Assembly: GCA_002786025.1 (NCBI GenBank)
Contig: NHNW01000002.1
Coordinates: 1,426,001 to 1,490,000, forward strand
DNA from: Zasmidium citrigriseum
Taxonomy: Eukaryota; Ascomycota; Dothideomycetes; Mycosphaerellales; Mycosphaerellaceae
Direction: 5' to 3'
DNA: 64,000 bases
Both the position numbers and the translations under genes were made by a program. How positions within the stretch are numbered: the first letter of the stretch is position 1; the number at the start of each line of letters is the position of its first letter. Shown here piece by piece: positions 3,120 to 56,395 of the stretch. The notes under the pieces were generated by a model. The model saw only the letters and a list, made by a program, of their open reading frames with translations. It was not told where the DNA came from and did no database searches.

Positions 3120-5673
3120 GGCTTGACCAACAATTTTTTTTCGACTTTTTTGGTTCTCCTCAAGATGGCGAGTTTCTGCTCGCAACAAAACTTTCTGGCA
3201 TCTCAGGAACGTCGAAATCACCAGATTCGCGCAGCTTCATATTCTCGTCCGAATGCGCCCTCTCACAAGGGCGTACCTCCCCCACTTCTTCCTCCACCTC
3301 GTTTGCCGCACGCGCTCAATGCCATCGGCGTCCAAATTGAGCCTGCACTTCGACCGCGGACATGCCGCCGCAAGCAATGCCTTCCAATCAGCAAGCACGA
3401 AAACTCCGTCACCGCCCAAGCCAGAGATTAGAGTTCCAGGAATTCGTGAGGCCATACGGTCGCGCCAGTCTCAGTTGCAGCCCCCATGAATATGACGTCG
3501 CTGCGGTGGGAGGGCAACCCAGTGGCGGTTGATCGGAGCATAGCGCAGCTGCCAGTGCGGCCGATCGCAAGGCGATCAATAAATCCTCTGCCAAGAAAGG
3601 ACGCGTCGACATTGCATGTTGAATGCGGTCGCTCGTCATGAGGCGTTTTCGGCGTTTTCGGCGTCGTCGTTGCCGAGGCATCCAGTCGATCAGGTGACCA
3701 GTCAGGTGATGACTGTCAGGTGACCGGTCGACTTTGGGGGCCGAAAATGATAAGCTACCGCACACCTGGGGGCCAAATTCGGTGGAGGTGCTTGCGGTTC
3801 TCTTGTAGCGCTTGCAGTTCTCAGATGGCTTTGGCGGTCTTCAGGCGAATCTGACGGTACTGTCGCTTGGAATATGCAATCTTCTTTGTAGTGCAAATTG
3901 GGCCGTGGAAATAAGCTTCTTGTGTGCCTCCGACGGTGTGCCTGTGAGTGTCAACCGCGGTAAGCTGCTAGGTCAGGACGGTGATAGCCTGTTCAATCAT
4001 TATCAGCTTGAATCGCAGCCACATCGAAGGGCGTTGCAAGTGATCGCTGCAGTCGATGATGCGACCGCCGCAGAGGCCGCGACGATGTAAAGCGAAATCG
4101 CTGGGTGTAAGGAAGACGGTGATGGTGAAGACTGGGCGACGGCAAAGGTCAATTCGCAATGTTGTGCAGTGTAGGAGATAAGAAAAGGACAGGAGTGGAA
4201 TGGAGAAGGGATGTGTGTGGGACTTAGCAGTGGTTAAGAGAAGAAGAGATGTCGTGTCCTGTGGCATGGGAAAGAAGGTGAGAGAGATCGAAGGGGGAGG
4301 ACGAGGAATATATGCGCAGCCGGAGGCCGCCCTTCAATGAGAGGCGCAGGTGGAGGCCGCCCCACGTCAGAGGCAAGCTGCAGCACAGCGGCCTCCCACC
4401 CAGTTATCCGTACCCTCTTCATCTTCTCCCATCGCGCATCAGTGCACGGGCGGCCGCCAATGAGCATTCGAGCTGTCGAGCGAATTGCAATCTTGTGCCG
4501 CTCCATTCCAGAACCTTTTACATGCCCAAATGATGCTTGGTCTTTAATCGTCATACCGGCACTGGAGGCGGCCCTCTCTGGCTCTCCCAGCCTCCAACTA
4601 GATCATCACACACTCTGCGTCGTCCAGAAGAACGTGAGCAGGATATGTTCTTCTCCAGCGGTATGTACGATACTTGGAGTGTGACAAAAGACAGATGAGA
4701 ATCGCGTTACTGCGAGGCGCAGCTGGCAGCTTGGGGGCCGCTCGGCGAGGCTGCGGGCGGTGCTGGCGGTGCTGGCGATTCTATTGCGCAAGAATTCCCT
4801 GCCATCACTTTCTGCAGCGTGCGAAATGTCGAGCCGAACGAGATCTTGTGTCGTATATGTCAGTAGGTTACCCGTTTTCGCATGTTCAGTGCACCATTTC
4901 CTGCGTGGACGAAGTTCTGCGCCCCCAGCCCACGCGGTCTGCTGTGGCACGAATTTGCCTCCGGTGGTTTGCGGGAATCACACACTCCATTCCTTTGAAA
5001 GAGGGACGATTGCACATTGCCGACGCGAAAATTTGTCAAGACAAAGCATCAAAAGTAGAGTACGTTGCGACCATGTTGGCGGCGTTCGGGACAAGAGCCG
5101 CCGATCAGCGTGGAAAATCACAAAGTTCGAGAGCTGAAGTCGACCTCGGACGTTGGTCGAAAAGTCAGGCTCACGTGCCGCTGCATCAATGTCGCGAGGC
5201 GGTGAATTGTTAGAGGCTGTCACTGGCGGCGGCATATTGATGGCAGCCTCGAGCTTCTTCGCCAACTCCAACAGAATTTCCCGCTTCCATTACCTGTCTT
5301 TCTCGATCAACATGCGGTGGTTGCTTGGAACGTAAAGTAGCGCAGTTCTTTGATCAAGATGGACGACGTCTCCGGCGAACAGTCCAGCGGTATGCGTCAC
5401 CACATGTCGCCTGAGATCCTTGAGATAATGAAAGCTTCCTCATCAGACACAATACCATTACTTTCGTTCTGTGATGTATCTACACCCCTCTATGACCGTC
5501 GCCATGCACCAAAGCAACAAGGAGGATCAAAGAAAGCGTCGCATCGAAAATGCCCACACGCCATCCATTCGTTCACAATCAATCGCCATGCAAACGCTGC
5601 TAACAAAAGTATTGCTCTCGTTTCTGCCGTATCGAAGTGTTCATTCCCTGTTTCTCCGCACTACACCTCCTCT
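3120..5673. other. gene-poor stretch, no gene recognised
   Basis: Many short open frames exist on both strands but none reads as a convincing protein or splices to a neighbour. Two more exact GAGGCCGCC copies occur at 4323 and 4353, with a GAGGCGGCCCTC variant at about 4565 and GGGCGGCCGCCAAT at about 4449, so the motif cluster continues here. The last part is presumably 3' flank of the PH-domain gene. Confidence 0.4.
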
Positions 5674-8600
5674 TCATCTCCTCGCAGGTTGCTGCTGCTG
5701 CCACCTCTGCCCGCCCTGCTGCTGCGGCATCCCACCATAAGGCATACCTTGCTGAGGCGACTGCATCATACCCTGTTGCTGTACAAATTGCCCTCCATAG
5801 CCTCCCGCCTGCGACGGTTGCTGCTGCATAGGGATATGCATCGACTGAGGTCGACTCAATCTCCACGAACTGTGCCGTCGGTTATCAGGTCGGGGTTGTT
5901 GCTGCATAGCCTGCTGGTGCTGCATCTGCTGCCATTGCGCCTGTGCCATAGCCTGCGCTTGAGCTTGCTGTTGCGCTCGCTGCTGCATATCGAATTGCAT
6001 TTGAGCTTGTGCTTGTTGCTGAGCGCGCTGGTGCATTTCGTACTGCATCTGAGCCTGAGCTTCAGCTTCCAATTGTAGCTGCTGTTGTTGTCGTGCTGCA
6101 ATAGCTTGTTGTACTGCGTTGCTCCTCATGCCTTGTGTAAGTGCTGCCTTCTCGCGCTCACGAGCCTGCAGAGCACCGATCAACCCCGGCGAGACTTGCT
6201 CCTGTCCCTTTGGATTCGATGCCATGTTTATCAAGGGTGTTCCGCTAGCTCTTGCAACGTACATCTGTTCTTTTGCGGAAAGAGTTGCAGGTTGTTGATT
6301 GCTGACAAGGGCGCTCTGGTTGAGATAATTGCCTGCACCCCTCGAATTCGGGCGACTCGGTGGTGTTCTGTTCTGTCCTTGCAGTAGCTCGCCAGACGGA
6401 GATCGAGAAAAAGGCGGCGGCGTCTTCGACATAGACTGTCTCATAGTATGTACTGCACTCATCGATGCCGTCCTCTGATGTGCGAGGTGAGGCGGGACAA
6501 CTGATCGTCGCTGAGGTGCTTGAGGCTGCGCTGCTAGTTCTGCCCGATGCTGTACCCATTCCTCTGGTGACAATGTTTTGCGCTTGTTCATGGTGACTTC
6601 AGGCGATGCTCGACCCGCGGAGCCTGGCGATGCTCCCGGCCAAGCAATGCTGTGTCGATGGTTCGGTGGATCGGCAGTCTCGATTCCAGTAGGAGTCGTT
6701 CTGCCGCCAAAGTAAGAATTGCGATTGTTCTCTCCAGGACTGGGCGTGAAGTAGGCGCTCATCCTCGACCCGGCTCCCTGCCGCAACTTGTCGGCAGAGC
6801 GAGATCGAGAGCGGCGTCCATCCATGTCTCCCGGGGTGATAGTGCCACTGGTGCCAGGCCGCGAGGTCGGCTTGTAAGAGTATGTCGGTCCAAACGAGAC
6901 GATCGGTATTTCAGACGTCTGCTCCTCAAGATCTTTGTTATAGGTATCCAATTTTCCAACTCCACCTGATCGGGCATCTGCGGTTGGCATTTCTGGGTCG
7001 CCGACCGTCTTGAGCTTGCCCGGCCGCACCCATTCTTTTGGCTTCTTCTTCACTTCGTGATCAGAGCTTTCGACGCTCTCGTAGTCTGGCGTGGCTGACG
7101 AGCCCGAAGCCAAGGTGCTGGTGCGCTCATCGTTCAATATCCGTTCTATCGCATCGGAGTCAACAAAATCCATCAGACTTCCAGTAGGAGATACTGGTGA
7201 GGTAGAGTTGGACTCCATTGTAGAACGCACCTGTTGACGAGACGAAGTTTGCCCTCCCTCTGATTGCTTCGGCAGGGGCTTTCTCTGAATGCTATGACTA
7301 GATCGCAGTTGCTCGGGAGGGTCAGGACGGACCTGCCCAGCTCCCTCAACCATGCCGTCCATCTGCGGCATGTGGCCCTGCTGGTGAAAGTACTCGCTGT
7401 CGTTGCTTCCGTATGGGGAGCCTGGGATTGTGCTCAGCCGCTGCTGATTCGGCTCGGATGTAGCAAATTGCTGGTTACGGTACGGCAAGGCGCCGTTTCC
7501 GACAGCTTGGGCGGGCGGGTAGTTGTCAAAGTCCTCATCGGCAGGAGGACGAATGGCGTCGCGCATCTCATTGAGAGTCTCCTGATCAACGTTCGAGTGC
7601 TGCCTACGCAACTCGGGCGCTTGATAAGGTTGAGTCGGAGGGCGACTGTTGGGGTTGTGCTGGAAAGCTGGGGGAGAAAGGACCGGCTCTGGCGGTGGCG
7701 ATGGAGCGACCTGGGCTTGATCGTTGAGACCAGCACCCAGCATGCCTCCATGTCGAGGCGGCGCTGGTGGTTCGTCATCGTCGTCTCGGCCCTGCTCATA
7801 GGATAGGCGAGATGGCGTTTCGACCATGTGCTTGCGATGGCCATATACATCGGATGCGGATCGCTTGTGTGGGCTCATGTGAAGGGCCTGGGGCGGTGCA
7901 CTATCCGTACGTCTGACGATCGGCTCCGCACCAGGTCTAGCAGCAGGAGACCCAGACCTCGAACCTGGGGAAGAATGAATACTAGGTTCCTGGAATTGAA
8001 CTCCGCCTCGCGCAGGTGGCAAAGAAGACCGACTAGTCGTGTTGCGACGGTGGGCCATCTGCCTACTACTGCGTGGGGAGTCCTCCATAACGTTCATCAT
8101 TCTGGTAGAAGTGAGTTTCTTCAACTCTTTCCGCCACTGACGTTCACTCCAGTTCTGGCTTCCTTCCGTGTGGATGAGTCCAGACACATCCAGAATATCC
8201 AGGTAGCCATATCTCCTGTCACGGGGCATTGCGAACATCAGACCTCTCTGGTCCAGGGTATCGGCAATCAGTCTCGAAGGGCGACCATACAAGCCAAAGG
8301 TATCGAACACAGGGAAAAGCCACCTCAACATCATCTCGAAACCAGATACAGCGGGGTGGACTTCTGGCATGACGAAGACAAAACCCTCAGTGGTCGTCTC
8401 CTGACCGCCATGGATGGTTACAAGACCCTCGAGCTTGACCAGTGTCGACTGATCGATCAGGGGCTTCGACTGAGGGTAGATAGCATACGCTGCAAAAGCG
8501 TCGGTGATAGTCGCAATCGGCCTCGTCTTCTTGGTGATCTTGCGGGTGTCATAGAACTTGATGTCGCCCTTGGGCACTGCAGCTCGGCCGTACGCAGAGC

Positions 8601-14269: not shown

Positions 14270-15791
14270 ATGGCCGATACGAGCCCCGCAGTTCCTTCGA
14301 CCGCCGACGGCGAGCAGCCACCACAGGCGATAGCGGGAGCTGAGGAACAGAAGACTGAAGCTGTTGCGAGTGAGGAGAAGCCTCAGGAAGCTGGCGCAGA
14401 TGGACCAGCACAGACACCATCACAGCCGGAGGGCGAGACTCCGGCTGCTGCTGCGAGCTCAGAACAGCAGGCCAACTCAGGCGCCGCAGAGATCGACCCG
14501 TCAAAACCCAGCGTTCTCATAATCGGTGGTCTCGGTATGCAAAATCTCACATACGTCTACAGCGCGTGCGGAATGACAAGCTTATCGAAAGATTTTGTGA
14601 AATAGGATACATCGGCCGCTACCTCGCCGACTACATCCACAAGAACCAACTCGCCTCGACCCTACGTCTCGTCGACAAGCAACTCCCGCAACTCGCCTCT
14701 CTCGCGCCTGAACATCAGGAAGCCTGCTCCAACGATAACTTCGTGCAAGCCGACGCCTCGCGCGAGCAATCCCAATCGCGGATCTTCGACCTCCCACCCG
14801 CGGCCGACGGCTCGAACAGGGAGTTTGACTATGTCTTCAACTGCGGGGGTGAAACGCGCTTCTCGCAGGAGGACGAGGTGTACCGTCTGCGTAGCTATCA
14901 GCTGAGTCTCACAGTAGGCAAAGAAGCAGCGCGAAGAGGCGTGAAAGCTTTCGTGGAGTTGAGTACAGGGACTGTGTACAACCCCAACAAGAACCCGCAA
15001 AAGGAGACGGATAAGACGAGTAAACCGCACACCAAACAGGCGAAGTGGAAGCTTTCTGCCGAAGAGGAGTTGGCGAAGATTCCCGGGTTGAGGCTGGTTG
15101 TGCTCAGGTTTCCGAATGTTTATGGTCCGTATGGACGGGGCTGGCTAGGGACGCAGCTGTGTTTGGCGAGAGTATACCAGAGTCGCGAGCCTAAGGAGAC
15201 GATGAAATGGCTCTGGAGCGGCGATCTGCGCACCAACACTCTCCACGTCGAAGACGCCGCGCGCGCGTGTTGGCTCGCAGCCGAATGGCGCTCCACGCAC
15301 GATAGTCTCCCCTCCGGCCCCGCGGACAGCAAGATCGTCTTCAACGTCGTCGACAAAGGCCAAACAACGCAAGGGACCATGGCGAGCATCATCAAAGACC
15401 TCTTCGGGATCGAGACGGGATTCCAGAACGCTCTTGTCAACACATTTGCGCGGTTGAATTTGGAGCATGTGGTCGATGATGTGAATGATGATACTCTGGA
15501 CGATTGGGCGGATTTGCAGGAGGCGGCGGGGATTAGGGGGAACGGGGGCCCGTTGAGTCCGTTTATGGAGAAGGAGATTTTGAGGGATGCGGATTTGAGT
15601 ATTGATGGGGCGAGGTTTGAGGGGGTTGTTGGGTTCAGGTGAGTTTTATTATGTTTGTGTTAGAGGTGGTGGGATTTGAGCATGACTTACTGACTCTTTT
15701 CGTGTTTGGCAGGCCACAGCATGAACGCATCACCAAAGAAGAAGTCCAGCGCGTGATTGACAGTTACAAGACGATGAATTGGTGGCCTTGA
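14270..15791 (+). CDS. NAD-dependent epimerase/dehydratase (extended SDR)
   Basis: Three exons: 14270-14534, 14606-15638, 15713-15791; 458 aa. The first intron (71 nt) splits the nucleotide-binding motif and splicing restores VLIIGGLGYIGRYLADYI, a GxxGxxG Rossmann loop. The catalytic YxxxK is seen in STGTVYNPNK. Further extended-SDR features are LRFPNVYGPYG and NTLHVEDAARACWLA. About 80 N-terminal residues are Ala/Glu/Pro-rich and look disordered. The C terminus ends MNWWP after the last short exon. The protein probably acts on a nucleotide-sugar or similar substrate, but the substrate cannot be read from sequence. Confidence 0.85.
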
Positions 15792-16355
15792 TGCACCACC
15801 CGTGAGGAAGAAACGGCCGAATTTTTTTCGTTGTATGAAATGACTTGCTGGAGATTCTTGTAGCATAGCGATTTTCTATCTTCTTCTTTTGATACCGATT
15901 TAAAGAATAGAGGGCATGAGGAAGGGAAAGGGGGATTGTTGGAGATCGTATTTGTTGATGGCTGACCGTTGGCGGGAAGATCCGTTGCCAAATCTCATCG
16001 ATGTGGTTTGACTTCACCTCTTCTTCTCTCCTTCCCTCCTTCCCACTCATCAAAGATTTGCTCTTTCTGCCCGTGATTCGACAAATCGGCGTATGAAGCA
16101 CGGCCGACTATGACTGGCATCGAATCTCAGCAAGATGATCTCAGTGGCGGCTTCAACGTGCAGCAGGCACGCGCCGCAGGCAGCCTCTACTTCGGCGGAC
16201 CTCACCTGATCTTGAAATCGAAGCTCTGAGGCTGGAGCTGGAGCTTAGGGAAGACCTGAAAATGCGCTGAGTATCTGCGCCCACCTAGGTGAGTATGTCG
16301 TGAGAGACCAGCGTTGCGTGTCGGCACAGAAGACAGGCCGTCTCCAGGAGCTCTG
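15792..16355. promoter_or_regulatory. upstream region of HET gene 1
   Basis: It contains a 39-codon upstream frame starting at 16110 and a likely leader intron (GTGAGT at 16289 to CAG at 16329). No separate gene is supported. Confidence 0.35.
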
Positions 16356-19010
16356 ATGGATCATCTACCCGCTCCAGCCGATCCTGTAGCACCGCTGCCA
16401 GAGGTGCCGTATGTTTGCAAGATCCCGTACGATGGCGGAGGATTTCTATTTTATCCGATCCGCCAGGGAATTCCGCAGTTGAGCAAGTCGGACACTTGGG
16501 CCAGCATAGCCGCTTGGGAGGCCAAACATCCCCTCGATGATAGGATTCTCGAGGATCTGCTCCAGTCGTGGCTCTTCTTTGGCCTGCTTCATGAGCTTTT
16601 GAGTCGGCATAATCTGTTTGATGCGGCCGGTTACGTGGAAACGAGCGGATCTGGACGGAAATGCGTGCATACGAAGAATCTGATCCGGCGTCTAGGACAG
16701 TGGGCTAACATCGTACGCTTCTGGGAAAAGAGACAAAAGGTCGAAGAGCTGAAGCACTTGTCGGCTTGTCTGACACTTGCCACTGAAGCCAGTCTCCTCA
16801 TCTTTATGGATCGCCACCAGGGCTGCAACCGCGCACTCGCGTGGTCGCTCGCGGCTCTCCAAGAGACCATCGCGGGCGCCGTCAGTCTCGCCTTCGTCAG
16901 CCCGACGAACTTCACGACAGTCCCGGCAACGACGGCCGTAGTCTTGAACTACGCGGAGATGGACTCGATGATCCGCAATGGATGGTGTATCCATGAAGTC
17001 CTCTGTGCTCATAAACAGTTCGAGAGCACTGCGGGACGGTTTTATATCCAGCGAATGCGCAGGTCTAGTCTCGGTCTCGAGCACAGCCGTTGCGAGGAAG
17101 ATACTTGCAAGCGTCTGCAGATCGATCTCTCCATGTACAAGCCGCAGCATATTTCAGAGACCTGTCAGTGCTCGTGGTCTGGACCGACGCCACGAGAGAT
17201 TGCAAGGTGCCTGGAAGCTGGAAGCTTCCCGGTGCTGCGGATCCGGGGCGACGATTTGGGAAGCGTTGAAATCGATATTGTGCCGTACGTCAAAGGCATG
17301 GTGTATGTGGCACTGTCTCACGTATGGGCAGATGGGTTGGGGAATCCAGCTGCGAATCGTTTGCCCCAGTGCCAGCTACTTCGCCTGAAGAGGCTGGTCG
17401 AAGATGTGCGCGAGACGCGCTTCTTACAGTTAGTCGACAAGAATGCCGAGTTCATACGCCCACCGCGTCCGATCAAGTTCATGGATGAATCACAGGAGAT
17501 GTTCATCTGGTGTGATAGCATTTGCTGCCCAGTGCAAGACACAGCAGACCCATTTTCATCGGCCGATCTGGCATATGCACAGTCCACTGCTATCGCAAGG
17601 CTGCGGGATGTATATCAACAAGCAGCATATGTCCTGGTCTTGGACAAGGGCCTCGAGCAGGTCGATTTTGATGCCATCGACAGTCTTGAAGCGGGCCTCA
17701 GGATCTTCACAAGCAGATGGATACGCCGGCTATGGACTTTTCAAGAAGCTGGACTGGCTCGACGACTTCTCATCTCCTTCCGTGATACCATTGTTAATTT
17801 CGAGCGGATTCATGGTGCCATGCACTGGACTTCTTCATATGCGCTTGATGCTCGGAATTTTCAGCTGCGGCGAGATCTGACGCAGCACTGTTTCAACCTT
17901 CGGGCATGGTTTGATCAGAAGGGGCTCGTTGGCATCGACCGTCGTGGACTCGTCTGGAGCTTGTGTTGGCGCAGAGTCAGTATCCCTGCCGACGAAGCGC
18001 TCTGCCTGGCCGCGGCTTTCAATGTGGATATCATGGCCGTCTCCAGAACATTTAACACTGTCGATGAGCGGATGAGGGAATTGTGGCGACAGGTGTCGTT
18101 GTCGTCAAGGGGAGTCTCCGCGTTCCTCATCTTCAGCTGCCTGCCGCGCATTACATTGCCGGGATTTCGATGGGCGCCTTCGACCATATTGCAGAGTGTC
18201 CGAGCTAGTAGCGTGCTGGAGACCGTGTTGGCAGGTAACAATGACCCGCGAGGGCAAGTGACTCCGCATGGCTTGCGTGTGAATCTACCGGGCTGGACAG
18301 TGCGGATTCTGGGACCTCCCGACGGAATTCCAGGCGACTTGATGGCCAATGACGACCCAACGGGTTACGCTTTCAGGGATACCAGGACCGGTGCTTGGTA
18401 TTCAATCGGCGAAAGTCAAGATCTACAGCCCGGAAGGCATATGCGCTTGAATCATTTGTTGAAGGACCGGGACCGACTCTGGCATGTGATCCTCGACACT
18501 ACTGGCACGAAAGAGCAGCAGCTTCACCTTGGCTGTAAAGGGCTCTTAGTTTCCTCAGCAGCCCTCGTGGGCTCAAGCATACCGGTTCAACGCTCGGAAA
18601 TGGTCGTTTGGGTTCAAAGACTCTCTCCTCATCGTTGCTTCATCTGGGAATATGTCTACCACCGTATACACTCTCTGCGGGACGATTGGAAAATTGAGGC
18701 CATATCCCGCATGTTGGAAGACGTGCAAGCTATAGACCAAGCGTGGGCCAAAATTTTGTACGATACGCATCTTGATGCAGGGGCCGAGGTATCGAAACTC
18801 ACGCCTCTGGAGGAGCTATGTCGAGAACTGTTGATTCAAATCAAGTCCGAGACAGAGGCGCTCGTAAGAGACGAAGCAATGGTGCAAGCCTTTTGGGAGG
18901 CTGGGGCCCATGTGAGTGATCTGCCACATCTTTTGAAAAGTGTGTTCTTGGGGTGGATAGGGACGATTGAGGAGACTTTTTACGAGGCCACGACTTGGTA
19001 TGTGGACTGA
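16356..19010 (+). CDS. HET-domain protein 1
   Basis: Intronless, 884 aa from the ATG at 16356; the open frame extends a little upstream but only with TTG. The HET (heterokaryon incompatibility) domain lies around residues 320-480, with the family motifs in divergent form: YVALSHVWADG, MFIWCDSICCPV and SRWIRRLWTFQEA. HET domains in known incompatibility proteins trigger cell death when a non-self partner is sensed. The long N-terminal (about 320 aa) and C-terminal regions have no recognised domain. Its stop codon lies 7 nt from the stop of the convergent HxxHC gene, so the transcripts must overlap. Confidence 0.85.
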   Translation: MDHLPAPADPVAPLPEVPYVCKIPYDGGGFLFYPIRQGIPQLSKSDTWASIAAWEAKHPLDDRILEDLLQSWLFFGLLHELLSRHNLFDAAGYVETSGSGRKCVHTKNLIRRLGQWANIVRFWEKRQKVEELKHLSACLTLATEASLLIFMDRHQGCNRALAWSLAALQETIAGAVSLAFVSPTNFTTVPATTAVVLNYAEMDSMIRNGWCIHEVLCAHKQFESTAGRFYIQRMRRSSLGLEHSRCEEDTCKRLQIDLSMYKPQHISETCQCSWSGPTPREIARCLEAGSFPVLRIRGDDLGSVEIDIVPYVKGMVYVALSHVWADGLGNPAANRLPQCQLLRLKRLVEDVRETRFLQLVDKNAEFIRPPRPIKFMDESQEMFIWCDSICCPVQDTADPFSSADLAYAQSTAIARLRDVYQQAAYVLVLDKGLEQVDFDAIDSLEAGLRIFTSRWIRRLWTFQEAGLARRLLISFRDTIVNFERIHGAMHWTSSYALDARNFQLRRDLTQHCFNLRAWFDQKGLVGIDRRGLVWSLCWRRVSIPADEALCLAAAFNVDIMAVSRTFNTVDERMRELWRQVSLSSRGVSAFLIFSCLPRITLPGFRWAPSTILQSVRASSVLETVLAGNNDPRGQVTPHGLRVNLPGWTVRILGPPDGIPGDLMANDDPTGYAFRDTRTGAWYSIGESQDLQPGRHMRLNHLLKDRDRLWHVILDTTGTKEQQLHLGCKGLLVSSAALVGSSIPVQRSEMVVWVQRLSPHRCFIWEYVYHRIHSLRDDWKIEAISRMLEDVQAIDQAWAKILYDTHLDAGAEVSKLTPLEELCRELLIQIKSETEALVRDEAMVQAFWEAGAHVSDLPHLLKSVFLGWIGTIEETFYEATTWYVD

Positions 19011-19017
19011 TACACCC

Positions 19018-19656
19018 TTACTTCGTCCACGGCGTCGGATCACACTCATACATCCCCAATGTCGCCACCGTCAACGGATCATCTCCTTCGCCCAAAGCCT
19101 TCAGTTGATCAATACAATGCCGGGCATGATCGAAACTCAACGACTTCCTATCCAGCCACGACAACCCCTTCTTCTGAGCATACGCCGATTTCTCCCACAG
19201 GAACAGGCAGTGTTCGGTGTGGTACCCTGCTTCGCCGGTCCAGATGTTGAGCTCCTTTCCCTCCCACAGGTCTTCTTCCGTCAGGGGCTTCGTCAGGTTC
19301 TCGTCGGCGTACCAGGTCCATTTGTTGAAGGAATACGAGTTGGTCACTTCGGCGAATTGGCAGTGAGGTGGCATCCAGCCGTAGATTAGGGGCTCCATTA
19401 CGCAGCCGCGGGATATGGCGTCGGCGCTTGTGCGGCCGCAGTTCGTGATGAGAGGAGTCGGAGTTCTTGATCTGGCTGAGAACCTGAGAGGACGAATGGA
19501 ACCAAGAAGTATCCCGAGGCCTATCGAAGCGACGATGCCGATGAAAAGGAGGCCATATCTTGTCCGTTGTCTGGATTGTGGAGGCCTTGTCAATACCTTC
19601 TCGTCCTGCGTCTCATCATCCGCGACCTGGGTGTACTGGAAGTCTTTGAATGCCAT
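19018..19656 (-). CDS. membrane protein with two HxxHC motifs (UstYa/DUF3328-related)
   Basis: Intronless, 212 aa from the ATG at 19656. A short cytosolic N terminus is followed by one membrane helix (about residues 34-54, LLFIGIVASIGLGILLG), giving type II topology. The lumenal part begins with a Cys-Gly segment (NCGRTSADAISRGC) and carries two HxxHC motifs, HTEHC and HARHC, 31 residues apart. Paired HxxHC is the signature of the UstYa family, whose characterised members oxidise and cyclise ribosomal peptides; this protein belongs to a divergent branch found widely in ascomycetes. It lies downstream of, and on the same strand as, the repeat precursor. A role in maturing that peptide is an inference. 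Confidence 0.72.
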   Translation of the reverse strand: MAFKDFQYTQVADDETQDEKVLTRPPQSRQRTRYGLLFIGIVASIGLGILLGSIRPLRFSARSRTPTPLITNCGRTSADAISRGCVMEPLIYGWMPPHCQFAEVTNSYSFNKWTWYADENLTKPLTEEDLWEGKELNIWTGEAGYHTEHCLFLWEKSAYAQKKGLSWLDRKSLSFDHARHCIDQLKALGEGDDPLTVATLGMYECDPTPWTK

Positions 19657-20302
19657 TGCTCGAGCCTTTGATTGGACCAGACTTGGTTTACTGGACGAAG
19701 CAAAACGAAGTAGCTGGTGTGCTCAAGGACGGCGAAGACAGCTGCTCAGAGGACTGCAACGCGGAACGCATCTTCGACCAATGCACCATGGCTCAGCCCT
19801 CGAATCTCGTCAAGAGCACGATGTAACATCATTGCCACTATCACCTCAATGCCGCGGAAAGCCATGAATCCAGCACGCCTTCTCATGCAATGCAATGCAA
19901 TACCACGCGGAAGAGGCACTTCTCCATTCGGAAGGTTGACACATGCGCACACTTGCCCGCATGGGGCAGGTCAGAACAACCTATCATTGTTCCGTGGACG
20001 CCACCAACAGCCTGATACACTAAATTCTCGAAGGATTTGCGAAAGTCGCGAAGCTACACTTGCTCGCGTGAGTAGCGCCTGCTTGGTCAACCACCGGCTC
20101 AGGCTATCAGCTCCGCAACCCGCATTTACTATCGAACTTGGCTGTGGAGCTTTACGAGCTTCAGTGTGAGCTTGATGAGACGGAAGACAAGCTTGCGTGG
20201 GTCTTGGATTGTTCCTGTCTTGAGGCTACTTGAAGACAAGGAGAATTGCCAAGGGTGTCGGATGCTTGACTTCGACGGCAGCCAAAGAGCCAGCTTTCTG
20301 AT
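19657..20302. other. intergenic stretch between HxxHC gene and precursor gene
   Basis: It holds the promoter of the 19018-19656 gene and the 3' flank of the precursor. A short plus-strand Leu/Glu-rich frame at about 20120-20225 (LAVELYELQCELDETEDKL) looks coiled-coil-like but has no start or partner exon. Confidence 0.35.
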
Positions 20303-20890
20303 CTACTCTGGAGATTCATTCAGACAACGCTTTCTGCACCCATCCGGGCTTGGGGAAACGATGTCGCCTCGCTTCTCTGCTTCAACTCCATCGGCACCTG
20401 GAGGAACGTAAAACATGTTGCCTCGCTTCTCCGCTGCGACACCCTCCGCACCGGCAGGAACGTAGAACTACAATAGTCAGAAGCGTCAGCAATCATTCTG
20501 ACAGAAGTTCACACTGCAACTCACCATGTTGCCTGGAGCACGCTTCTCTGCTTCAACACCTTCCGCGCCAGCAGGAACGTAAAACTTCGGGAAAGTTAGC
20601 TTCACTCTCAGGGGTTGAAGTTTTGGATATACCATGTTGCCACGCTTCTGTGCTTCAGCACCGTCTGCGCCGGGTGGGACGTAGAACTGTTCGAGCTGAT
20701 CAGCATCGTTCAATTCCTGACAATGTTTGTCCAGCTAGCTTACCATGTTACCTGGATCACGCTTCTCCGCCTCTGTACCTTCCGCACCAGCTGGCACATA
20801 GAACATGTTGCCCGGAGCACGCTTGTCTACCGGTGCAGCAGCAGACAAAGCCAGCATGCAAGCGGCACTGAGAATCGTGGAGGTCTTCAT
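20303..20890 (-). CDS. secreted Kex2-processed repeat precursor (candidate RiPP precursor)
   Basis: Four-exon model, 141 aa: exons 20890-20744, 20686-20633, 20584-20525, 20467-20303; introns of 57, 48 and 57 nt, all phase 0 with GT/AG ends. A signal peptide (about 19 residues, MKTSTILSAACMLALSAAA) and a short PVDKR leader precede five tandem 18-20-residue units. Each unit contains NMFYVP, then P/A-G-A-D/E-G, then an acidic spacer ending in Lys-Arg, the Kex2 cleavage site. A 21-residue tail follows, with two Cys. Signal peptide, KR-separated repeats and a Tyr-containing core are the hallmarks of fungal dikaritin-type RiPP precursors. HxxHC genes on both sides fit this. An alpha-pheromone-like precursor is the main alternative. 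The product and its activity are unknown. Confidence 0.85.
20369..20818 (-). repeat. five tandem coding repeats of the precursor
   Basis: Unit 1 is 20818-20759, unit 2 20758-20642, unit 3 20641-20540, unit 4 20539-20423 and unit 5 20422-20369. Units 2, 3 and 4 are each interrupted by an intron exactly between Met and Phe of NM/FYVP; units 1 and 5 are uninterrupted. Units 1, 2 and 4 begin with an extra Ala-Pro or Asp-Pro before GNM; units 3 and 5 do not. Units 2 and 5 carry VPPGADG, the others VPAGAEG. Confidence 0.85.
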
Positions 20891-21607
20891 GTTGTTGCTG
20901 TACCGGCTGCGGTTTGTCCTCGAAGGTGTGTTCTTGACGGAATCAATCTGGTCAACGCTTCAACAAAGAGACAAAGATATATGTTTGAACTCTGTCGAAT
21001 TTCGACCAGCGCCCAAGATGCGGATCAGGTTACATCGTCCGTCACCTGCAGATGCATCACCTTGGACTCCACAAAGATAACGCACCTGCTCAAAATTGTG
21101 AGCATCCATCGTTTGGAAGACCTTTGCCGTACTAGGCAGTTGGGAAGGCTTCAGCTCCGGATACCACCTTTACCCGCGGGCTCAATAACCACGCTAGTAC
21201 ATCAGCCCTAGAAGTCCGGCCCATGTGAGGGCATCCAGAAATTCTCTCACACGCTACTGCTATGCAGACGGACGCCTCGAACCTCATGTGGTTCTCGGAT
21301 CAGCTTACCAGAACCTGTATTCATAGGTTAGCATCGGTTCAGAAGCTGGATCCTTTAGTCAACGATGGATTCACTTACATCTCGAAGCAAGCTAGACCGG
21401 ATCTGGAAGGTCCCCGATATCTGTTCATGCACTACACTAGCTTCATGCACGTGAGCTGAAGGCTTGATGTTGGCTTCGAAATTCTTCGCCATTGCTTGTG
21501 TTGCATCGACAAGACGCTGAGGTAGAGAGTTGTCTCTTGGAGTGAAAGCTTCTCCGGACGTCGATTGGAATCGGGGCTTGTCAAGTTCAACTTTTTCACA
21601 CTTCGCG
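20891..21607. promoter_or_regulatory. divergent promoter region between precursor and UstYa-family genes
   Basis: The two genes point away from this 717-bp stretch. An AT-rich ATATAT at 20977-20982 lies about 87 bp upstream of the precursor ATG and may act as its TATA element. No protein-like frame was found. Confidence 0.45.
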
Positions 21608-22518
21608 ATGGAGACCAAGTCCTGGGAGCAGAAGGAATCATTACTCACGGAGAGGAATGAAGACTCCCAATTGCAGAATGAAAGGCACAGGAGACGACGG
21701 AAGGCCCTGCTCTGGTCCTTCATTGTGTGCTCGAATTTGCTGTCTTTCCTCGTTGGATGCAGTCTGAACTGGACGAATCTTGTGTCGAAGACGGCCTCAT
21801 ACACAACATCATCTGAAGCCGGGAGAGAAGACCTCTTCGCCGACATCGACCGCACGAATTTGCGCGATACAGTCTTTGAGCCTTTCTCCTATAAGATGAG
21901 CAACTATACAACCCCAGCAGGCGGAGACGTCGACGTTGATGCGAATTGGGAGGCACTCGGAGCAATGTGTATGACCTGCAACCTTACATGACTGCCAACG
22001 TACTGACCTGCTCCCTAGACGAAGCATTCTTGATCCCACCTTCTCACGCAGAAGCCTTCGATCTAACACCCGAGCACATCCTCTACACTCCTGAGACGAT
22101 CTCCGATCCCCCAAACATCATCACAGAACCCGGTTATCCCGCCACAATGCAAGCAATCCACCAAATACACTGCCTCAACCTTCTCCGCAAATCCATGTGG
22201 TTCAACGCAGACTACTACCGAGACGAAGCCAAAGGCTCCTGGGGCGGAGGCCAAAGCGACGAGGTCATCATGGCTCACGTCGGCCATTGTTTGGACACAA
22301 TGCGGCAGGTGGTCATGTGCAATGCGGATACGGATGTTGTGCCGCTATATTGGTTTAGCAGGAACGGACGGACGATTTTCGATTTCGCTCGGCATAAGCA
22401 GTGTCGGAATTTCGAGTCGGTGAGAGCTTGGTCGGAGAAGCATGAGGTTAGGGCGTTTGAGAATGCGGTCTTTCAGCCTCCGCCTGGGGTTACATTGGCG
22501 AAGATTGAGGGTGTGTGA
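21608..22518 (+). CDS. UstYa-family (DUF3328) oxidative cyclase-like protein
   Basis: Two exons, 21608-21968 and 22019-22518 (50-nt intron, GTATGA donor, TACTGAC branch), 286 aa. The ATG at 21608 is chosen because it opens a typical type II membrane protein: a charged N terminus, then one helix at about residues 39-60 (LLWSFIVCSNLLSFLVG). After the splice the family segment WEALGAMYEAFLIP is restored. Both signature motifs are present, HQIHC (followed by LNLLRKSMW) and HVGHC (followed by LDTMRQ), as is the C-terminal CRNFESVRAW. UstYa proteins carry out C-H oxidation and cross-linking in dikaritin biosynthesis, in the secretory pathway. Divergence from the repeat precursor suggests the two are functionally linked. 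Confidence 0.87.
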
Positions 22519-24066: not shown

Positions 24067-27000
24067 TCATTTCGGCGCTGCTGCTGTACACAATGGACAT
24101 TTATACATCTGTCGCCGCAGCGGCTTGCCGTCCCTGTAATCATCATCAAGACACACGCGGTGGAAGACGTGTCGACAGGCAAACACCACCAGCGCGAGCT
24201 TCCGCGTGTCTTCGCTCTCGCTGGCGTCCACCATCGAAGCCGATGCTTTTGCTTTCCCTCGAGACATTCGGCGAGCTTCTTGTCCGCCGCTGCGTTCTAG
24301 CATTTTTCGGGTCTTTTCTGTTTCGCGTTCTTGTTCGCGAGCGACCCATTCGTCCCATACTACTTCGCCAATACCGGGCCCCCAGGCGCGACGTTTGCAT
24401 TGCTCGCAGACTTGGGTTCGGGGCCGCCAGCCTCGTTGGCGGAGTTTGTTCGCTTTCTCGATGTCGATGAAGACGTCTGATCCGAGTAGGTCGTGTGCGA
24501 GCGACAGCACGCCTTGTTCGAATGTGTAGGCTGAGAAGATGTCTGACAGGACGGCTCGGAGATCTGCCAACGATGGCGCTGATTTGGCTGCTCGTGTGAG
24601 GAAGGCGCGGAGCACTCGTAGAAAGCCTTGGTGGTCCGCTTGTTTCTGAAGCTCCGCACCCTCCTCTTTACTCCGGATGCTCGGCGTTGCAGTCGATGCC
24701 ATTAGAGCAGTGAAGGCTTGCTGTACATGTGAGCGCAGCGCAGAAGCGATTTTGGCAGAATCAATGGTTTCTGTGGCCTGTTCTGAAGGATGGCTGTCGA
24801 AGTTTTTCAGCGCGGATATGGTGTTCTGGGCAACCTGCACCACCACATCGACCAAATTCAGCCACAAATACTCGTCAAGATCGAGATCGTTTTCATTGAC
24901 ATCCCAGGCGAGATTCGTCCGGGGTCGCGGCCGTCTTTGCGTCGTGGCAGTCTGGCCCTGACATAGCCAGATGCCGACCTTGGTATATTTCTCCAGATCT
25001 TCGATCAAGTCATCACACGGTTCTTGAGAAGCAGTAACGTCCGGATTGGATGCAGCAGCATCAATCAAGCTGACCAAAGCGCTTTGGAGATTTTGCATGT
25101 GTGATACCAACCGATCCATTGCGTCCCGCGCCAGTCCATCTCGAGCGAGGAGAGCGACTGCCGCATCAATGACTCCGCTGCTCTCCATCGCCGGCAGGAC
25201 CTGCTCCAGTCGGAGATCTCCTGATGGCAGTGTTTTGATGTAGTCCGCAACGTGCAAGGGATCATGATTGCACATCAGTCGCACGTATTGCTCGATGAAT
25301 GCGGACTGCTGATCGACGAGTGGAGGCGAGGTGGGTGCATTTTCGTGTCGCAGAAGAGCGGGCTCAAGGAGTGTTCGCAAGAAGACGAATTGCTGATGTG
25401 TATCAGAGAGAGAATCGACGATGGATTGCAGCAGGTCCGGGGCCGAGATGGCGAGCGTGCGAGCGGTCAGCACTGTGTTGATGTCGGCCAGTTCTTGAGC
25501 ATGCCTTGATATGACGTGCTTGACCGATTGAGTCTGCTTTTGATTCAGACCAGTAATCTGGCGCAAGCACAGAGTGATGCAATCAAAGACGTTTTCTCTG
25601 TCGTCAGGATCTTCGAAGTATGTCTCCACTAGTTCCGTGAACATACGCTCTCCACGATACACCGATTTCAGAACTCGATAGAATCTCGCACCTCGTAGTG
25701 ACTCGATGAGGGATGGAACATTCGTGGGATGATACCCTGACAGAAGATACTCCACGCTGAGCTGGCATTCTTCTCGCAAGGACTGTACCGGCGGGTGGCA
25801 GAGTCTTTGAAGAACACCATTCAAAAGCGATCCCGATAATACCAGTTGTCCTGGGTACTTCGGCAGACTCCGTGCAACGAACATGTCCAGATAGACGACC
25901 TGCGTCGGCTCGAATTCGCCTTGCTTCATCACATGGAGAAGAATGTCGATGATCTGCTGACGACTCTTCTTGTGAGTCGAGACTCCATTTGTAGTGATGA
26001 TCCCGTTCATCCCGATGTCCTCGTCTTCGTTGAGGAACGCATCTTCGAATGCCTCATTCAGCATACTCATGAAGTTGGGAGTGTCAAACTGTAGTAGAAG
26101 ATCCAGATACGGAAAAGCAGGCTCGTCGTCCGAATCATCTGTGGTTCGGAAGATCTTGTTGCTTCCTTTGGGCCAAGGGACGGGCGTGCCTGAGAAGACA
26201 AAGTCGTACAGATCTGTCTTGGCTTGGCATGCTTCCTGGTCATCGGTGAGATCCCCACTAGGATACCGCCGTCCGGTCAAAGAGTAGGCGAGGAATGGGA
26301 AGACTTTCATGGCTGACTCGAAAAAAGGATTATCAGTGAGGTCCTCATCGTCGTCTCCTGCCTGTAGCATCTTCACCAGCGTGAGAAGATCGATGAGTGG
26401 TGTCACGTAGTCTTTGATGGCTTGCGTCCAGATGTAGATGAGCGCTTCGTAAAGCTGATGCTGCCGACATAACATCGTCACTTGGTCCAGATCAAACGAA
26501 AGCGGATTAAGACGGAACAAGAGTTCTTCAAGACGCGGTCCTTGGTTCTCTCCAATGAAGTGGGCGACAAGGGCCTTCACCACCTCTGCTGGCAGTGCTT
26601 TCACTTCACCTTCAAGCACGTAGGGCTCCAGTGTAGCAATGAAGATCGATTCTTCATCGGCCTCCGCAAACCATTCAAAGACGTCCGAGAAGAGGTAGTC
26701 GGTCTCCTTCATGGTCACACATGCTTCAAAGCAGACTTCGGCAAGCTCCCGTAATCGGATCGGTCGTTCCTCGTCTTGTTGAGAGAACGTGTAGTTGAGT
26801 GACGCTGATATCATCGCCAAAAGCCGTTCTCTGACCATTTGATGCCTTGCTTTATCGTTCTCTGGCAAGCCGATTGTCACATTGTTGGCACTTCCAGAGT
26901 AGTAGTCAGTGGCCAATCGAATCGCAGCAATGTGGTCTCCGGCCTCCATCAAGGCCATGAGTCGATCTGCCCAATTTGAGAGGGTCCCTACCGCGAGGTC

Positions 27001-28890
27001 GTTGAAGCCAAGGAGGAAGGTCCTCCCTTTGTATACTCGAAAACTCATATGAAAGGCGTCGGCGACCACGCCATGCAGGGAAGGCTCCTCAGAATCAAGC
27101 CGTTCCACGATTGCATGCAATTGATGCGAGAATAGGTCTTGATGATAGATGTGCTTGTGCAGCAGGTCGATCGAGTCTGTCACTTGCAAGCTTCCATCTT
27201 CGACAATCAGCATTCTCTGGCTAATCGTCAATACTGCCATGACAGATCGACCCAGCCATTGAACAGCGACTATGGCTTCTTCTGCCCGCCATCGACTCCT
27301 CGGATTGAATTCCAGGGACGGAGGCTTCTGAGGGTCTGCATTCTCAATGACTTTGACCTCGAGAATAGTAAGAACGTTCGACCACGAGTATGCAAGCTTG
27401 GTGTCCGAATTGCCCTTCTCTGCGTCCGTGCTCGTACTCTTTAGTTTGACTGCTGGGAACCAGGCCAAGCAGCCGCTCAGTGTACTATGCGGCGTGATCT
27501 CTTTTGGGCGAGGAGATTTGTGTTGGGTCTGCGCAATGGGCATTGTTGAGACGATGACCAGAAGGTAAGGCGTGAGCAACGCTGTCAGTCCCATTCCATC
27601 TGTTGCCTGCTCAACATTTCCGAGAGGCAGTGGCGAGAAGGCTAGAACCGAGCTGGGCTTCTTTGGTCCTTCAACACTTGGGTCTGCAGGTGGATACCTT
27701 CCAAGTAATCTTGTGGTTTTGATAGTCCTGGTCACGGGTCCAAGCCCGCGGCTTGCGACGTGCGAGAAAGCCATGCCTCCTGCATCTGCCGACACCAATG
27801 CAGTGTGTCTAGTACCCAGGAAGCCAAGATGGAGGATCGCCGAGTTCGCAAGGTGCCCATCAGCATGCTGAGGTTCTTGTAGCACACTCCTGTCGAGGGG
27901 CGCGACTTGCAGGAACGGTCTCGAAGGCCGGTTGATCTCCCAGGTAAAGATGTGGCCATTTGCATGACCACTTGCAATGGTCGAGTAGTCAGCTGCAATG
28001 GCAAGCGCCGTGACTGAACCGCATTCTGTCGCCTTTGTACCCTGTCCAATGATGATCTTGAGCGTTTGATGGTAATCGAATCCTAAGACGAGACCTTTCG
28101 AAGTTCCGATCGCGATCAAAGCAGATACGGCCATACAAGTAGGACGACCGAAGTTGCGCTTGCCTGCCTCGGAAAACGCCTGCCCGGTTATCTTTTTCAG
28201 CTTCGTCCACCTCACGACCTCCCACGGTGCTTGGGGAGTGTCGGTCCCTGAATCGTCATCCTGGGAAGAGATTCCAGAAAGTCGGGAGGTCATCGATATC
28301 TGTCTCGATCGAGGACTTAGAAAAGCTGGCGACTGTGCTCTAGGAGATCCCGCTGGGGAAGCAGATAACCGAGTCTCGAACCGACGTTCAAATGGCTGCA
28401 ATGCTCCTGAGGGTGTTCGTGTAGCTGTCTTCCGTGGTGATTGTGCCCGCCCAGGGGATGACAGTAAAGAGCCACGCTGCGAAAGGGTATCATCTGGTAC
28501 CGATCCTGAATCAATCGGACTGGCAAGCGGACTTCGCGCTGTTGGGGTTGCTGGCCCGGCATCTGGTCCAACATCTGGTCCAACATCTTCCACCGGAGGT
28601 GTCTCTCGTTCTTCAAAGTCTGTTATTTCCTCTCTACTGAGCTGAGGGTAGTCTTCATCTGCGGCATCTTCTTCCTGAGCTCCCGCATCCTCCGCCTCTC
28701 CGTTGACAGGAAGTAACCCCTCGTCTTCTACTTCGTCTTCTCTTTCCTCTCCTGGACCGATGTATTCTCCATATTCTATGTCCTCCTCCGCGTCTTGTTC
28801 CAGCCTCGCCTCAGCATTCCGCACCGCCTCATCCGCCTCGACATCCTCGTTGGGGCCGCCTTCCTGGCCTTCTCCAAACGTGGAGCTCAT
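24067..28890 (-). CDS. vps8: Vps8, CORVET tethering complex subunit
   Basis: Single exon, 1607 aa from the ATG at 28890; the frame upstream to 28932 starts with TTG. The N-terminal 230 residues are acidic and disordered. A beta-propeller follows (about residues 240-650; ACMAVSALIAIGTSKGLVLGFD is part of it, shown here to name the region). A long alpha-solenoid contains the Vps8 core (LLLQFDTPNFMSMLNEAF). The protein ends in a RING-H2 module: CEQC, then CRHVFHRVC and CPLC. Vps8 is the Rab5-binding subunit of CORVET and tethers early endosomes; the RING closes the subunit contact. Length and domain order match the family, so confidence is high. Confidence 0.92.
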   Translation of the reverse strand: MSSTFGEGQEGGPNEDVEADEAVRNAEARLEQDAEEDIEYGEYIGPGEEREDEVEDEGLLPVNGEAEDAGAQEEDAADEDYPQLSREEITDFEERETPPVEDVGPDVGPDAGPATPTARSPLASPIDSGSVPDDTLSQRGSLLSSPGRAQSPRKTATRTPSGALQPFERRFETRLSASPAGSPRAQSPAFLSPRSRQISMTSRLSGISSQDDDSGTDTPQAPWEVVRWTKLKKITGQAFSEAGKRNFGRPTCMAVSALIAIGTSKGLVLGFDYHQTLKIIIGQGTKATECGSVTALAIAADYSTIASGHANGHIFTWEINRPSRPFLQVAPLDRSVLQEPQHADGHLANSAILHLGFLGTRHTALVSADAGGMAFSHVASRGLGPVTRTIKTTRLLGRYPPADPSVEGPKKPSSVLAFSPLPLGNVEQATDGMGLTALLTPYLLVIVSTMPIAQTQHKSPRPKEITPHSTLSGCLAWFPAVKLKSTSTDAEKGNSDTKLAYSWSNVLTILEVKVIENADPQKPPSLEFNPRSRWRAEEAIVAVQWLGRSVMAVLTISQRMLIVEDGSLQVTDSIDLLHKHIYHQDLFSHQLHAIVERLDSEEPSLHGVVADAFHMSFRVYKGRTFLLGFNDLAVGTLSNWADRLMALMEAGDHIAAIRLATDYYSGSANNVTIGLPENDKARHQMVRERLLAMISASLNYTFSQQDEERPIRLRELAEVCFEACVTMKETDYLFSDVFEWFAEADEESIFIATLEPYVLEGEVKALPAEVVKALVAHFIGENQGPRLEELLFRLNPLSFDLDQVTMLCRQHQLYEALIYIWTQAIKDYVTPLIDLLTLVKMLQAGDDDEDLTDNPFFESAMKVFPFLAYSLTGRRYPSGDLTDDQEACQAKTDLYDFVFSGTPVPWPKGSNKIFRTTDDSDDEPAFPYLDLLLQFDTPNFMSMLNEAFEDAFLNEDEDIGMNGIITTNGVSTHKKSRQQIIDILLHVMKQGEFEPTQVVYLDMFVARSLPKYPGQLVLSGSLLNGVLQRLCHPPVQSLREECQLSVEYLLSGYHPTNVPSLIESLRGARFYRVLKSVYRGERMFTELVETYFEDPDDRENVFDCITLCLRQITGLNQKQTQSVKHVISRHAQELADINTVLTARTLAISAPDLLQSIVDSLSDTHQQFVFLRTLLEPALLRHENAPTSPPLVDQQSAFIEQYVRLMCNHDPLHVADYIKTLPSGDLRLEQVLPAMESSGVIDAAVALLARDGLARDAMDRLVSHMQNLQSALVSLIDAAASNPDVTASQEPCDDLIEDLEKYTKVGIWLCQGQTATTQRRPRPRTNLAWDVNENDLDLDEYLWLNLVDVVVQVAQNTISALKNFDSHPSEQATETIDSAKIASALRSHVQQAFTALMASTATPSIRSKEEGAELQKQADHQGFLRVLRAFLTRAAKSAPSLADLRAVLSDIFSAYTFEQGVLSLAHDLLGSDVFIDIEKANKLRQRGWRPRTQVCEQCKRRAWGPGIGEVVWDEWVAREQERETEKTRKMLERSGGQEARRMSRGKAKASASMVDASESEDTRKLALVVFACRHVFHRVCLDDDYRDGKPLRRQMYKCPLCTAAAPK

Positions 28891-29317
28891 CGGTGTCCTC
28901 TCCTCGAGCGCATTGCGTTGGGCTGGTACCAAAATTGAAAGAGGTCTGTTTCAGATGCCTGTGCCACACACAGAACGGAGCTGAAGGTGGATATGCGAGG
29001 GTGACTTGGTGGCTAGGCGGCGAAGGATTGGGACTCGTAATCGCGGGTTGCCGCTTCAAAATGTCGGGTACAACTTTGAATTTGTCAATGTTTGCTTCGT
29101 GAAGTCGTCGAAATCGTTGTCTTCGTGTCACTGCGGTATCTCTGTGGCCGTGCGAGGTGACGTTGTTGTTGGAGATTGCCTGAGGTTGATGGCCCAGCCG
29201 GATGCCATCCGAAGCTCGAGCAGTTGAGCTGCACTCCCGCGGACTTTGGAGCTTGCTGCTGAACAACATCGTCACTGCACTTGAACCAACACACAATCAC
29301 CACAACGCGAGGTCATC
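28891..29317. promoter_or_regulatory. divergent promoter between vps8 and the GPALPP-motif gene
   Basis: 427 bp separates two genes transcribed away from each other. No specific element recognised. Confidence 0.5.
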
Positions 29318-48687: not shown

Positions 48688-48999
48688 GCTCGCCGGAGAT
48701 TCCAAGGAAGATATCAAAAGCCTGTTGTAAAGCCCAAGAAAATTAGCTGGACCGCAGATCACGGTCGGTGGTCATGCAGAACTTCTGGGATGTTGAAGAG
48801 GAGCAAGCTGAAAATGAGAGGCTGAGTCGCACAAACATCGCATGCAGGGATGCCTCAGGCGAGTAGGCCACGCCGTCAAAGTATAAATGGGCGATGAGAA
48901 CGTGTAGACTGCATGAAAAAGTGTTCACGTCTTCATCTCAAGAGAAAACGTCTTACGAACTATCTCGCAAATGCAGCAGCCTCGCTCATCTCTTCTCTT
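48688..48999. other. short intergenic region
   Basis: 312 bp upstream of HET gene 2 and downstream of the kinase stop. Nothing specific seen. Confidence 0.4.
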
Positions 49000-55913: not shown

Positions 55914-56395
55914 CTTATCGCTAGAGACTGCGGAGACGATTGGAGACTGCGGCAGCAGAACCTTGACCCGCTGGTCCACACAACCTCATACCTTGGTGCA
56001 GATGACGAGGGAGACTCTTGGTTACTGCAACAATTCGAAAGGCTCTGAAGCTGTTGGCGTTCGACGTTGTCCCGCCTGGAAGATACGTCCCTCAGCCGCA
56101 TGCGGGCCAGACTCTCGTGCGGGGGCCGACATGGCGCCACTGCCGCCGGTGTGGAAGATGGTCCTCGCTTGCATCGTGGGAAGACACTCCTATATCACGG
56201 CGAATGGCGAGAGAAAAGGAGGAAAGCCATTTCGGCGAAGGTCTGGAGGAAGAAGGAAGAAGTGAAGATGAAGACGTGACGTTGGCAGACTGCATGGTCC
56301 AAGCGTCGCGCCGTGTCATCTTCGCGTTTTGACTTCACCCTTGTCTGCAACTTCACAGTCTCCTCTACCTCTAAGCCATCCATTCGGACGGCCTC

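Follow-up and report, generated by a model that had tools for sequence, protein, structure and literature searches.

Kex2-processed repeat proteins (KEPs) of fungi are defined by a signal peptide and at least three tandem repeats of at least 8 residues, which lie between KR, KK, RK or RR sites (PMC7329392), and dikaritins are the KEP-derived RiPPs that are cyclised by UstYa homologs (PMC10512285). Genes of the DUF3328 (UstYa) family accompany 22% of 7878 KEPs, and Tyr, which is the cross-linked residue in ustiloxins, asperipin-2a and phomopsins, is found in 65.6% of the repeats of DUF3328-accompanied KEPs versus 38.2% of those of the rest, with ascomycete pheromone KEPs almost never having DUF3328 neighbours (PMC7329392). 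For ustiloxin and phomopsin precursors an EDYxI core motif has been named (PMC6339444). Asperipin-2a derives from a four-gene cluster with one UstYa homolog and no tyrosinase, and sequential macrocyclisation by the single UstYa homolog has been proposed (PMC6514808). Ste13 takes off XP or XA dipeptides once Kex2 has cut (PMC9769878), and UstYa genes are found in polyketide and nonribosomal-peptide clusters too (PMC12048977). The large KEP survey began from annotated proteins (PMC7329392, methods), and neither its main text nor that of PMC6339444 contains the word ‘intron’. Neither an FYVP family nor introns within KEP repeats were met in the best-matching titles and abstract openings of the literature, a scope that leaves aside subscription papers and the supplementary tables of the KEP surveys.

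The window analysed here, namely the whole stretch of 64,000 nucleotides of Zasmidium citrigriseum DNA, contains a split gene that most likely encodes the precursor in a small cluster for a dikaritin-type RiPP, with the order YA2, precursor, YA1 (table 1).

Table 1. Coordinates (positions in the window) of the precursor gene, its parts and its neighbours.
Feature	Position	Strand	Remarks
NAD-epimerase-type gene	14374-15642		beyond the HET gene
HET-domain gene	16314-19010		match above Pfam cut-off
YA2, 212 aa, UstYa-like, below Pfam cut-off	19018..19656	minus	HTEHC and HARHC; N-terminal hydrophobic stretch (by inspection)
Precursor gene, start to stop codon	20303..20890	minus	4 exons, 141 aa; Z. 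cellare homolog P0001, E 1.7e-18
C-terminal tail GDIVSPSPDGCRKRCLNESPE and stop	20303..20368	minus	two Cys flanking RKR
Unit 5, GNMFYVPPGADGVEAEKR	20369..20422	minus	intronless
Unit 4, APGNM-intron 3-FYVPAGAEGVAAEKR	20423..20539	minus	spliced APGNMFYVPAGAEGVAAEKR
Intron 3, 57 nt	20468..20524	minus	GTGAGT...TAG; retention would give in-frame stops
Unit 3, GNM-intron 2-FYVPAGAEGVEAEKR	20540..20641	minus	spliced GNMFYVPAGAEGVEAEKR
Intron 2, 48 nt	20585..20632	minus	GTATAT...AAG; no stop and frame-neutral when retained
Unit 2, DPGNM-intron 1-FYVPPGADGAEAQKR	20642..20758	minus	spliced DPGNMFYVPPGADGAEAQKR
Intron 1, 57 nt	20687..20743	minus	GTAAGC...CAG; retention would give an in-frame stop
Unit 1, APGNMFYVPAGAEGTEAEKR	20759..20818	minus	intronless
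Signal peptide and short leader, KR-ended, aa 1-24	20819..20890	minus	hydropathy; strongly kept in Z. cellare alignment
Divergent intergenic region, 717 bp	20891..21607		possible common promoter, precursor and YA1
YA1, UstYa (DUF3328, PF11807) gene, 286 aa	21608..22518	plus	exons 21608-21968 and 22019-22518, 50-nt intron
VPS8	24067-28950

Removal of the three introns produces a single 141-residue frame, and position, strand, intron borders, four exons and five units all agree with the original prediction. Its statement that open reading frame calling misses the gene completely was too strong, since a 75-residue frame at 20486-20713 displays two of the units. The leader, MKTSTILSAACMLALSAAAPVDKR, ends in APVDKR and reaches its hydropathy maximum (2.16) at residues 6-17, followed by SAAAPVDKR; the signal peptide, which had been proposed together with the KR end, is judged by hydropathy only, and the hydrophobic N-terminus is conserved in the homolog from Zasmidium cellare described below. 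The units are 20, 20, 18, 20 and 18 residues long, respectively, and, once spliced, conform to the consensus GNMFYVP[A/P]GA[E/D]G..A.KR, which is preceded by AP or DP in three of the five. In units 2, 3 and 4, the predicted intron follows the ATG (Met) codon of NMFYVP and is followed in turn by TTY (Phe). The three introns have GT...AG ends with a CTRAY branch-like box 13-22 nt before the 3' end, and measure multiples of three (57, 48 and 57 nt); as intron 2 is also free of stops, its retention would insert 16 extra residues within unit 3 with the frame kept. NMFYVP is unbroken in the intronless units 1 and 5, and identical to that obtained by splicing units 2-4, which provides internal support for the introns; as far as the DNA can tell, this match of unspliced with spliced units is the best evidence for them short of a transcript. 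When the introns were compared with each other for signs that an intron-containing unit had been duplicated (1000 shuffles per pair), the score of the pair 1/3 was reached by 9 shuffles, and those of the other two pairs by 752 and 86.

A detector of at least three similar KR-ended stretches picks out the precursor gene, and found no chain in 792,000 shuffled bases obtained by two-base-block shuffling (three shuffles for each of 21 sources). Likewise, FYVP is encoded five times in the six frames of the window, each time in a unit of the precursor, whereas 20 mononucleotide shuffles average 0.4 occurrences. Comparison of the units with one another yielded overall values of 0.62 for pS and 0.07 for pN (pN/pS, 0.12), with pS exceeding pN in all 10 pairs. 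Silent sites are thus far more diverged than replacement sites, which implies that the DNA of the units drifted while the peptide was held, and from these comparisons the five KR-bounded units are judged to be under strong constraint at the protein level.

The search for a homologue with a related repeat, suggested in the original prediction, was successful. Among 377 candidates drawn from 5.8 billion proteins (E up to 10), the spliced precursor had one match, M409DRAFT_25424 (P0001) of Zasmidium cellare ATCC 36951 (E 1.7e-18, 51% over 83%), with which it has most of the signal peptide in common. The protein is annotated at 91 residues, with FY in four of its four units and FYVPP in two; two units read FYVPPSVDGKEA.., and the other two are without VPPSVD. 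The latter reflect either mis-annotation or real divergence: FYV is spelled TTY TAY GTN, and a false GT donor recognized inside the unit could account for the loss of VPPSVD. With YA1 as the query (423 candidates), three proteins were returned. The best match, at 62% over the full length, was M409DRAFT_25423; PRZ48_009346, which comes from a second assembly of Z. cellare, matched at 68% over 83%, and the third, from Sistotremastrum, was distant (30% over 39%). The tags 25424 and 25423 are consecutive and their contigs are of equal size (520,093), which puts the precursor and the UstYa gene next to each other in ATCC 36951 as well. For the PRZ48 assembly of Z. cellare, the protein search returned the UstYa homolog and no precursor; such searches depend on shared 5-residue words and on annotated proteins, so that relatives may be overlooked.

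Exon 2 of YA1 matches PF11807 with 112 bits (Pfam cut-off, 25). The protein contains the motifs HQIHC and HVGHC and, by inspection, an N-terminal hydrophobic helix, and its alignment with the Z. cellare homologs P0002 and P0003 supports the gene model. The region between the two divergent start codons is a possible common promoter. The words that it shares with the region 19657-20302 are one 10-mer (0.8 expected) and three 9-mers (3.3 expected), that is, nothing beyond chance. When the alignment of YA1 was run against PDB sequences, no match was obtained up to E 1, and the AlphaFold2 model of the homolog P0002 is of low confidence (mean pLDDT, 36.6). The closest relative of YA1 within the genome, on contig C58, matches it at 41%, with no repeat precursor around it in the stretch scanned (L026).

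On the other side of the precursor, YA2 resembles YA1 in having two HxxHC motifs and a putative helix (by inspection), but with 14.4 bits falls below the PF11807 cut-off that YA1 passes. Profile comparison of YA1 with YA2 gave a match spanning both HxxHC motifs (E 0.0024), which at 12% probability was set aside as proof of kinship. Among five YA2 relatives scanned against the UstYa profile (E up to 1), four had no match and one a sub-threshold match. The protein search with YA2 returned only two relatives (P0005 and P0006), both of a source that carries no organism labels, and none from Z. cellare; a viral-contig search with P0005 gave one pattern match and no confirmed one, NCBIfam had no family for any of the five proteins submitted, and the AlphaFold2 model of YA2 is again of low confidence (mean pLDDT, 41.8). 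The family occupies seven places in the genome, YA2 included. Alignment of six sequences (five of these places, YA2 among them, and P0005) shows 16 invariant columns, with CG....A.S.GC, a W, a C and both HxxHC motifs common to all six. Four of the seven places lie at most 3 kb from a UstYa match; with the window excluded they are three of six (binomial P 1.2e-6). YA2 is therefore a candidate member of the pathway on the basis of its position and of this in-genome pattern. One YA2-like protein (L039:4413-5999, plus strand) carries a long C-terminal His/Met-rich array of the MHPDMHP type, which is possibly metal binding.

As for other biosynthetic genes, no tyrosinase (PF00264) was found near the precursor, the nearest match on the contig being approximately 455 kb off, and none of the three S41 peptidase matches listed in the genome is on the contig of the precursor (C61). 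Scoring of 92 of the 229 P450 candidates gave no match in the window. The 25 frames scanned there, which hold 22 of its 30 frames of at least 200 residues, included no transporter or methyltransferase, and no isoflavone-reductase-like gene was recognized in them. Frames for HET (heterokaryon incompatibility) proteins above the Pfam cut-off number three in the 64-kb window (16314-19010, 46600-48771 and 55251-55985).

Other repeat precursors exist in the same genome. The window and 20 further stretches, which cover part of the places with UstYa genes (six others lying outside), were scanned, and KR-repeat chains were detected in four of the 21 sources: the window, L022, L023 and L027. The precursor in L022 (G000:C110:32001-42000, approx. 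6045-6506, minus strand) has four PP[IV]YRPLVNV.LPPS units and an intron with two possible acceptors. It is placed between a YA2-like gene (4662-5381, minus) and a UstYa gene (7378-8070, plus), matching the window in both strands and order; since the UstYa protein of L022 matches YA1 at 35%, below the 41% of the C58 relative, and is thus not its nearest relative in the genome, simple cluster duplication seems disfavoured. L023 (G000:C110:172001-182000, approx. 5792-6428, plus) encodes a long precursor with W[SN]SPDAYTIP and AYQIN units next to a UstYa gene; the detected chain has seven KR-ended units, with more in frame, and YxIP is reminiscent of phomopsin-type cores. In L027 (G000:C58:366001-376000, 249-1359, minus), a single open frame with a signal-like start and UstYa matches nearby contains 21 APQYVWSPKAA[E/A] units before KR. 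A laxer scan, run without a shuffled control and giving sources other than the window, L022, L023 and L027, listed short repeats of the KK/KR/RR type near UstYa matches in L024 (approx. 5578-5917, plus; DDVYHSKDGGIIKK), L029 (approx. 6492-6624, plus; DGSTEFDPDAFLKR) and L033 (approx. 7223-7556, plus; EPESCVGAQCYKAWRR), together with candidates in L021, L025 and L036 that are unconvincing by eye. At the other YA2-UstYa loci, L020 has no repeat precursor, and L021 has two-copy and Ala-rich matches only, which were not taken as a precursor.

The Kex2-processed, dikaritin-type precursor that had originally been proposed is still the best reading of the locus, where a secretory leader, constrained KR-bounded units and an adjoining UstYa gene can be read from the sequence, with the pairing kept in a second species. 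The UstYa gene and the double-HxxHC protein downstream, neither of which the original prediction had mentioned, add support. The precursor has the features of a KEP (a signal peptide, by hydropathy, and five units of 18-20 residues) and, 717 bp from its start, the start of a gene with a 112-bit match to PF11807. The core is FYVP and not EDYxI, and neither the tyrosinase expected for the ustiloxin/phomopsin branch nor the S41 peptidase of phomopsin-type clusters has a match nearby. Having the KEP traits and the UstYa homolog that marks dikaritins genetically, and lacking the ustiloxin/phomopsin traits, the gene is filed as that of a dikaritin-type KEP with a putative chemistry. The absence of a tyrosinase is no objection, given that the asperipin-2a cluster also lacks one. 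Because members of the UstYa family also take part in polyketide and nonribosomal pathways (PMC12048977), YA1 as a neighbour is strong, though not decisive, evidence.

By analogy with known KEPs, and from its architecture, the precursor would enter the ER and be cut after KR by Kex2 in the Golgi, with Kex1 taking off KR. We infer that a Ste13-type dipeptidyl aminopeptidase may then strip the opening AP or DP from units 1, 2 and 4, after which all five would start with GNMFYVP. The UstYa-like membrane proteins would oxidize the core, for which the invariant Tyr of FYVP and its surroundings are the likeliest site, and with the acidic tail trimmed away the five copies would yield a single short, modified peptide. 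As in dikaritins, the product may be cross-linked, with a loss of 2 Da for each link. Calculated [M+H]+ values for the linear and singly cross-linked forms are 1640.7261 and 1638.7104 for GNMFYVPAGAEGVEAE, 827.3756 and 825.3600 for GNMFYVP, and 525.2708 and 523.2551 for FYVP. The shared intron position would make each internal exon a circularly permuted, phase-0 unit, so that exon skipping could alter the number of units with the frame intact. A class of Kex2-processed repeat proteins with UstYa is already known; new, as far as searched, are the FYVP core, the placing of introns at one and the same point of three units, and a partner family that lacks annotation. NMFYVP, FYVPAG, FYVPPG and MFYVPP occur in none of the openly accessible papers searched, in line with the initial remark that the core was not a recognized one. 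It is a doubtful step further to see here a new dikaritin subclass, in which an FYVP core would be oxidized jointly by a UstYa protein and by a member of a Pfam-unrecognized double-HxxHC family that accompanies UstYa in several clusters, with one exon per core and splicing setting the copy number.

Alternatively, the Kex2-processed secreted peptide may stay linear (a hormone, an effector or a pheromone-like peptide) and the UstYa genes may have another role, which we consider unlikely. UstYa proteins do act in other pathways as well (PMC12048977), 78% of KEPs are without a DUF3328 gene nearby, and such a neighbour is present for 17 of 76 KEPs resembling putative Basidiomycota pheromones, so that by itself it does not exclude a pheromone-like role; however, a DUF3328 gene is near only 3 of the KEPs grouped with α-mating factors (227) and with ascomycete-type pheromones (216) (PMC7329392). 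At this locus, AP or DP directly after KR in three of the five units is the Ste13 motif of α-pheromone-type precursors, the other two units opening with G, but the neighbourhood is not DUF3328-free as for such precursors: the UstYa gene is adjacent and, judging from the consecutive tags, was retained in Z. cellare. What we take to be the α-pheromone peptide motif is absent from the units by inspection. Much less probable is a repellent- or wall-type repeat protein from which Kex2 cuts would release structural peptides: we know of no UstYa neighbour for Rep1-like repeat proteins, and the units found here are short and acidic with an invariant aromatic core, although a signal peptide and Kex2 repeats are common to such proteins (Rep1 in PMC9769878). 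That the repeat is due to chance, or belongs to an unexpressed pseudogene, is hardly credible in view of the pN/pS ratio between units, the homolog in another species, the lack of chains in shuffled DNA and the intact splice signals at all three introns.

Although its class is known, the locus rises above the routine in that the pair is conserved in a second species, that three units carry their intron at the same position, and that the partner family, for which Pfam has no name, recurs. As the mechanism of UstYa proteins is still being settled, one precursor with two small candidate enzymes, and with a conserved two-gene counterpart, offers a tractable test case, and the YA2 family, should it prove to work together with UstYa, would provide a new marker for clusters missed by Pfam-based mining. 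Furthermore, genes with intron-broken repeats invite mis-annotation, of which the Z. cellare copy is a possible case, and such families can therefore be undercounted.

Among known systems, precursors of ascomycete α-pheromones share with the present one the signal peptide, the Kex2 sites and XP dipeptides after KR (PMC9769878), but differ from it in that a UstYa neighbour is present here. UstA and PhomA, the precursors of ustiloxin and phomopsin, are similar in their signal peptide, several KR-bounded Tyr cores and association with UstYa-type proteins (PMC7329392, PMC6514808), whereas the precursor described here is without the EDYxI core (PMC6339444) and without a tyrosinase or S41 match nearby. 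Asperipin-2a (aprA with aprY) has a small cluster with a Kex2-type precursor, a UstYa homolog and no tyrosinase, and a core, FYYTGY, that also opens with FY (PMC6514808); the locus differs from it by its FYVP core and two UstYa-like genes, with no isoflavone-reductase-like or transporter gene recognized among the frames scanned. The Z. cellare protein M409DRAFT_25424 differs in its annotated length (91 residues versus 141 here) and in the two units without VPPSVD, but with M409DRAFT_25423 it forms the homologous pair of precursor and UstYa gene, both entered in the source as ‘hypothetical protein’.
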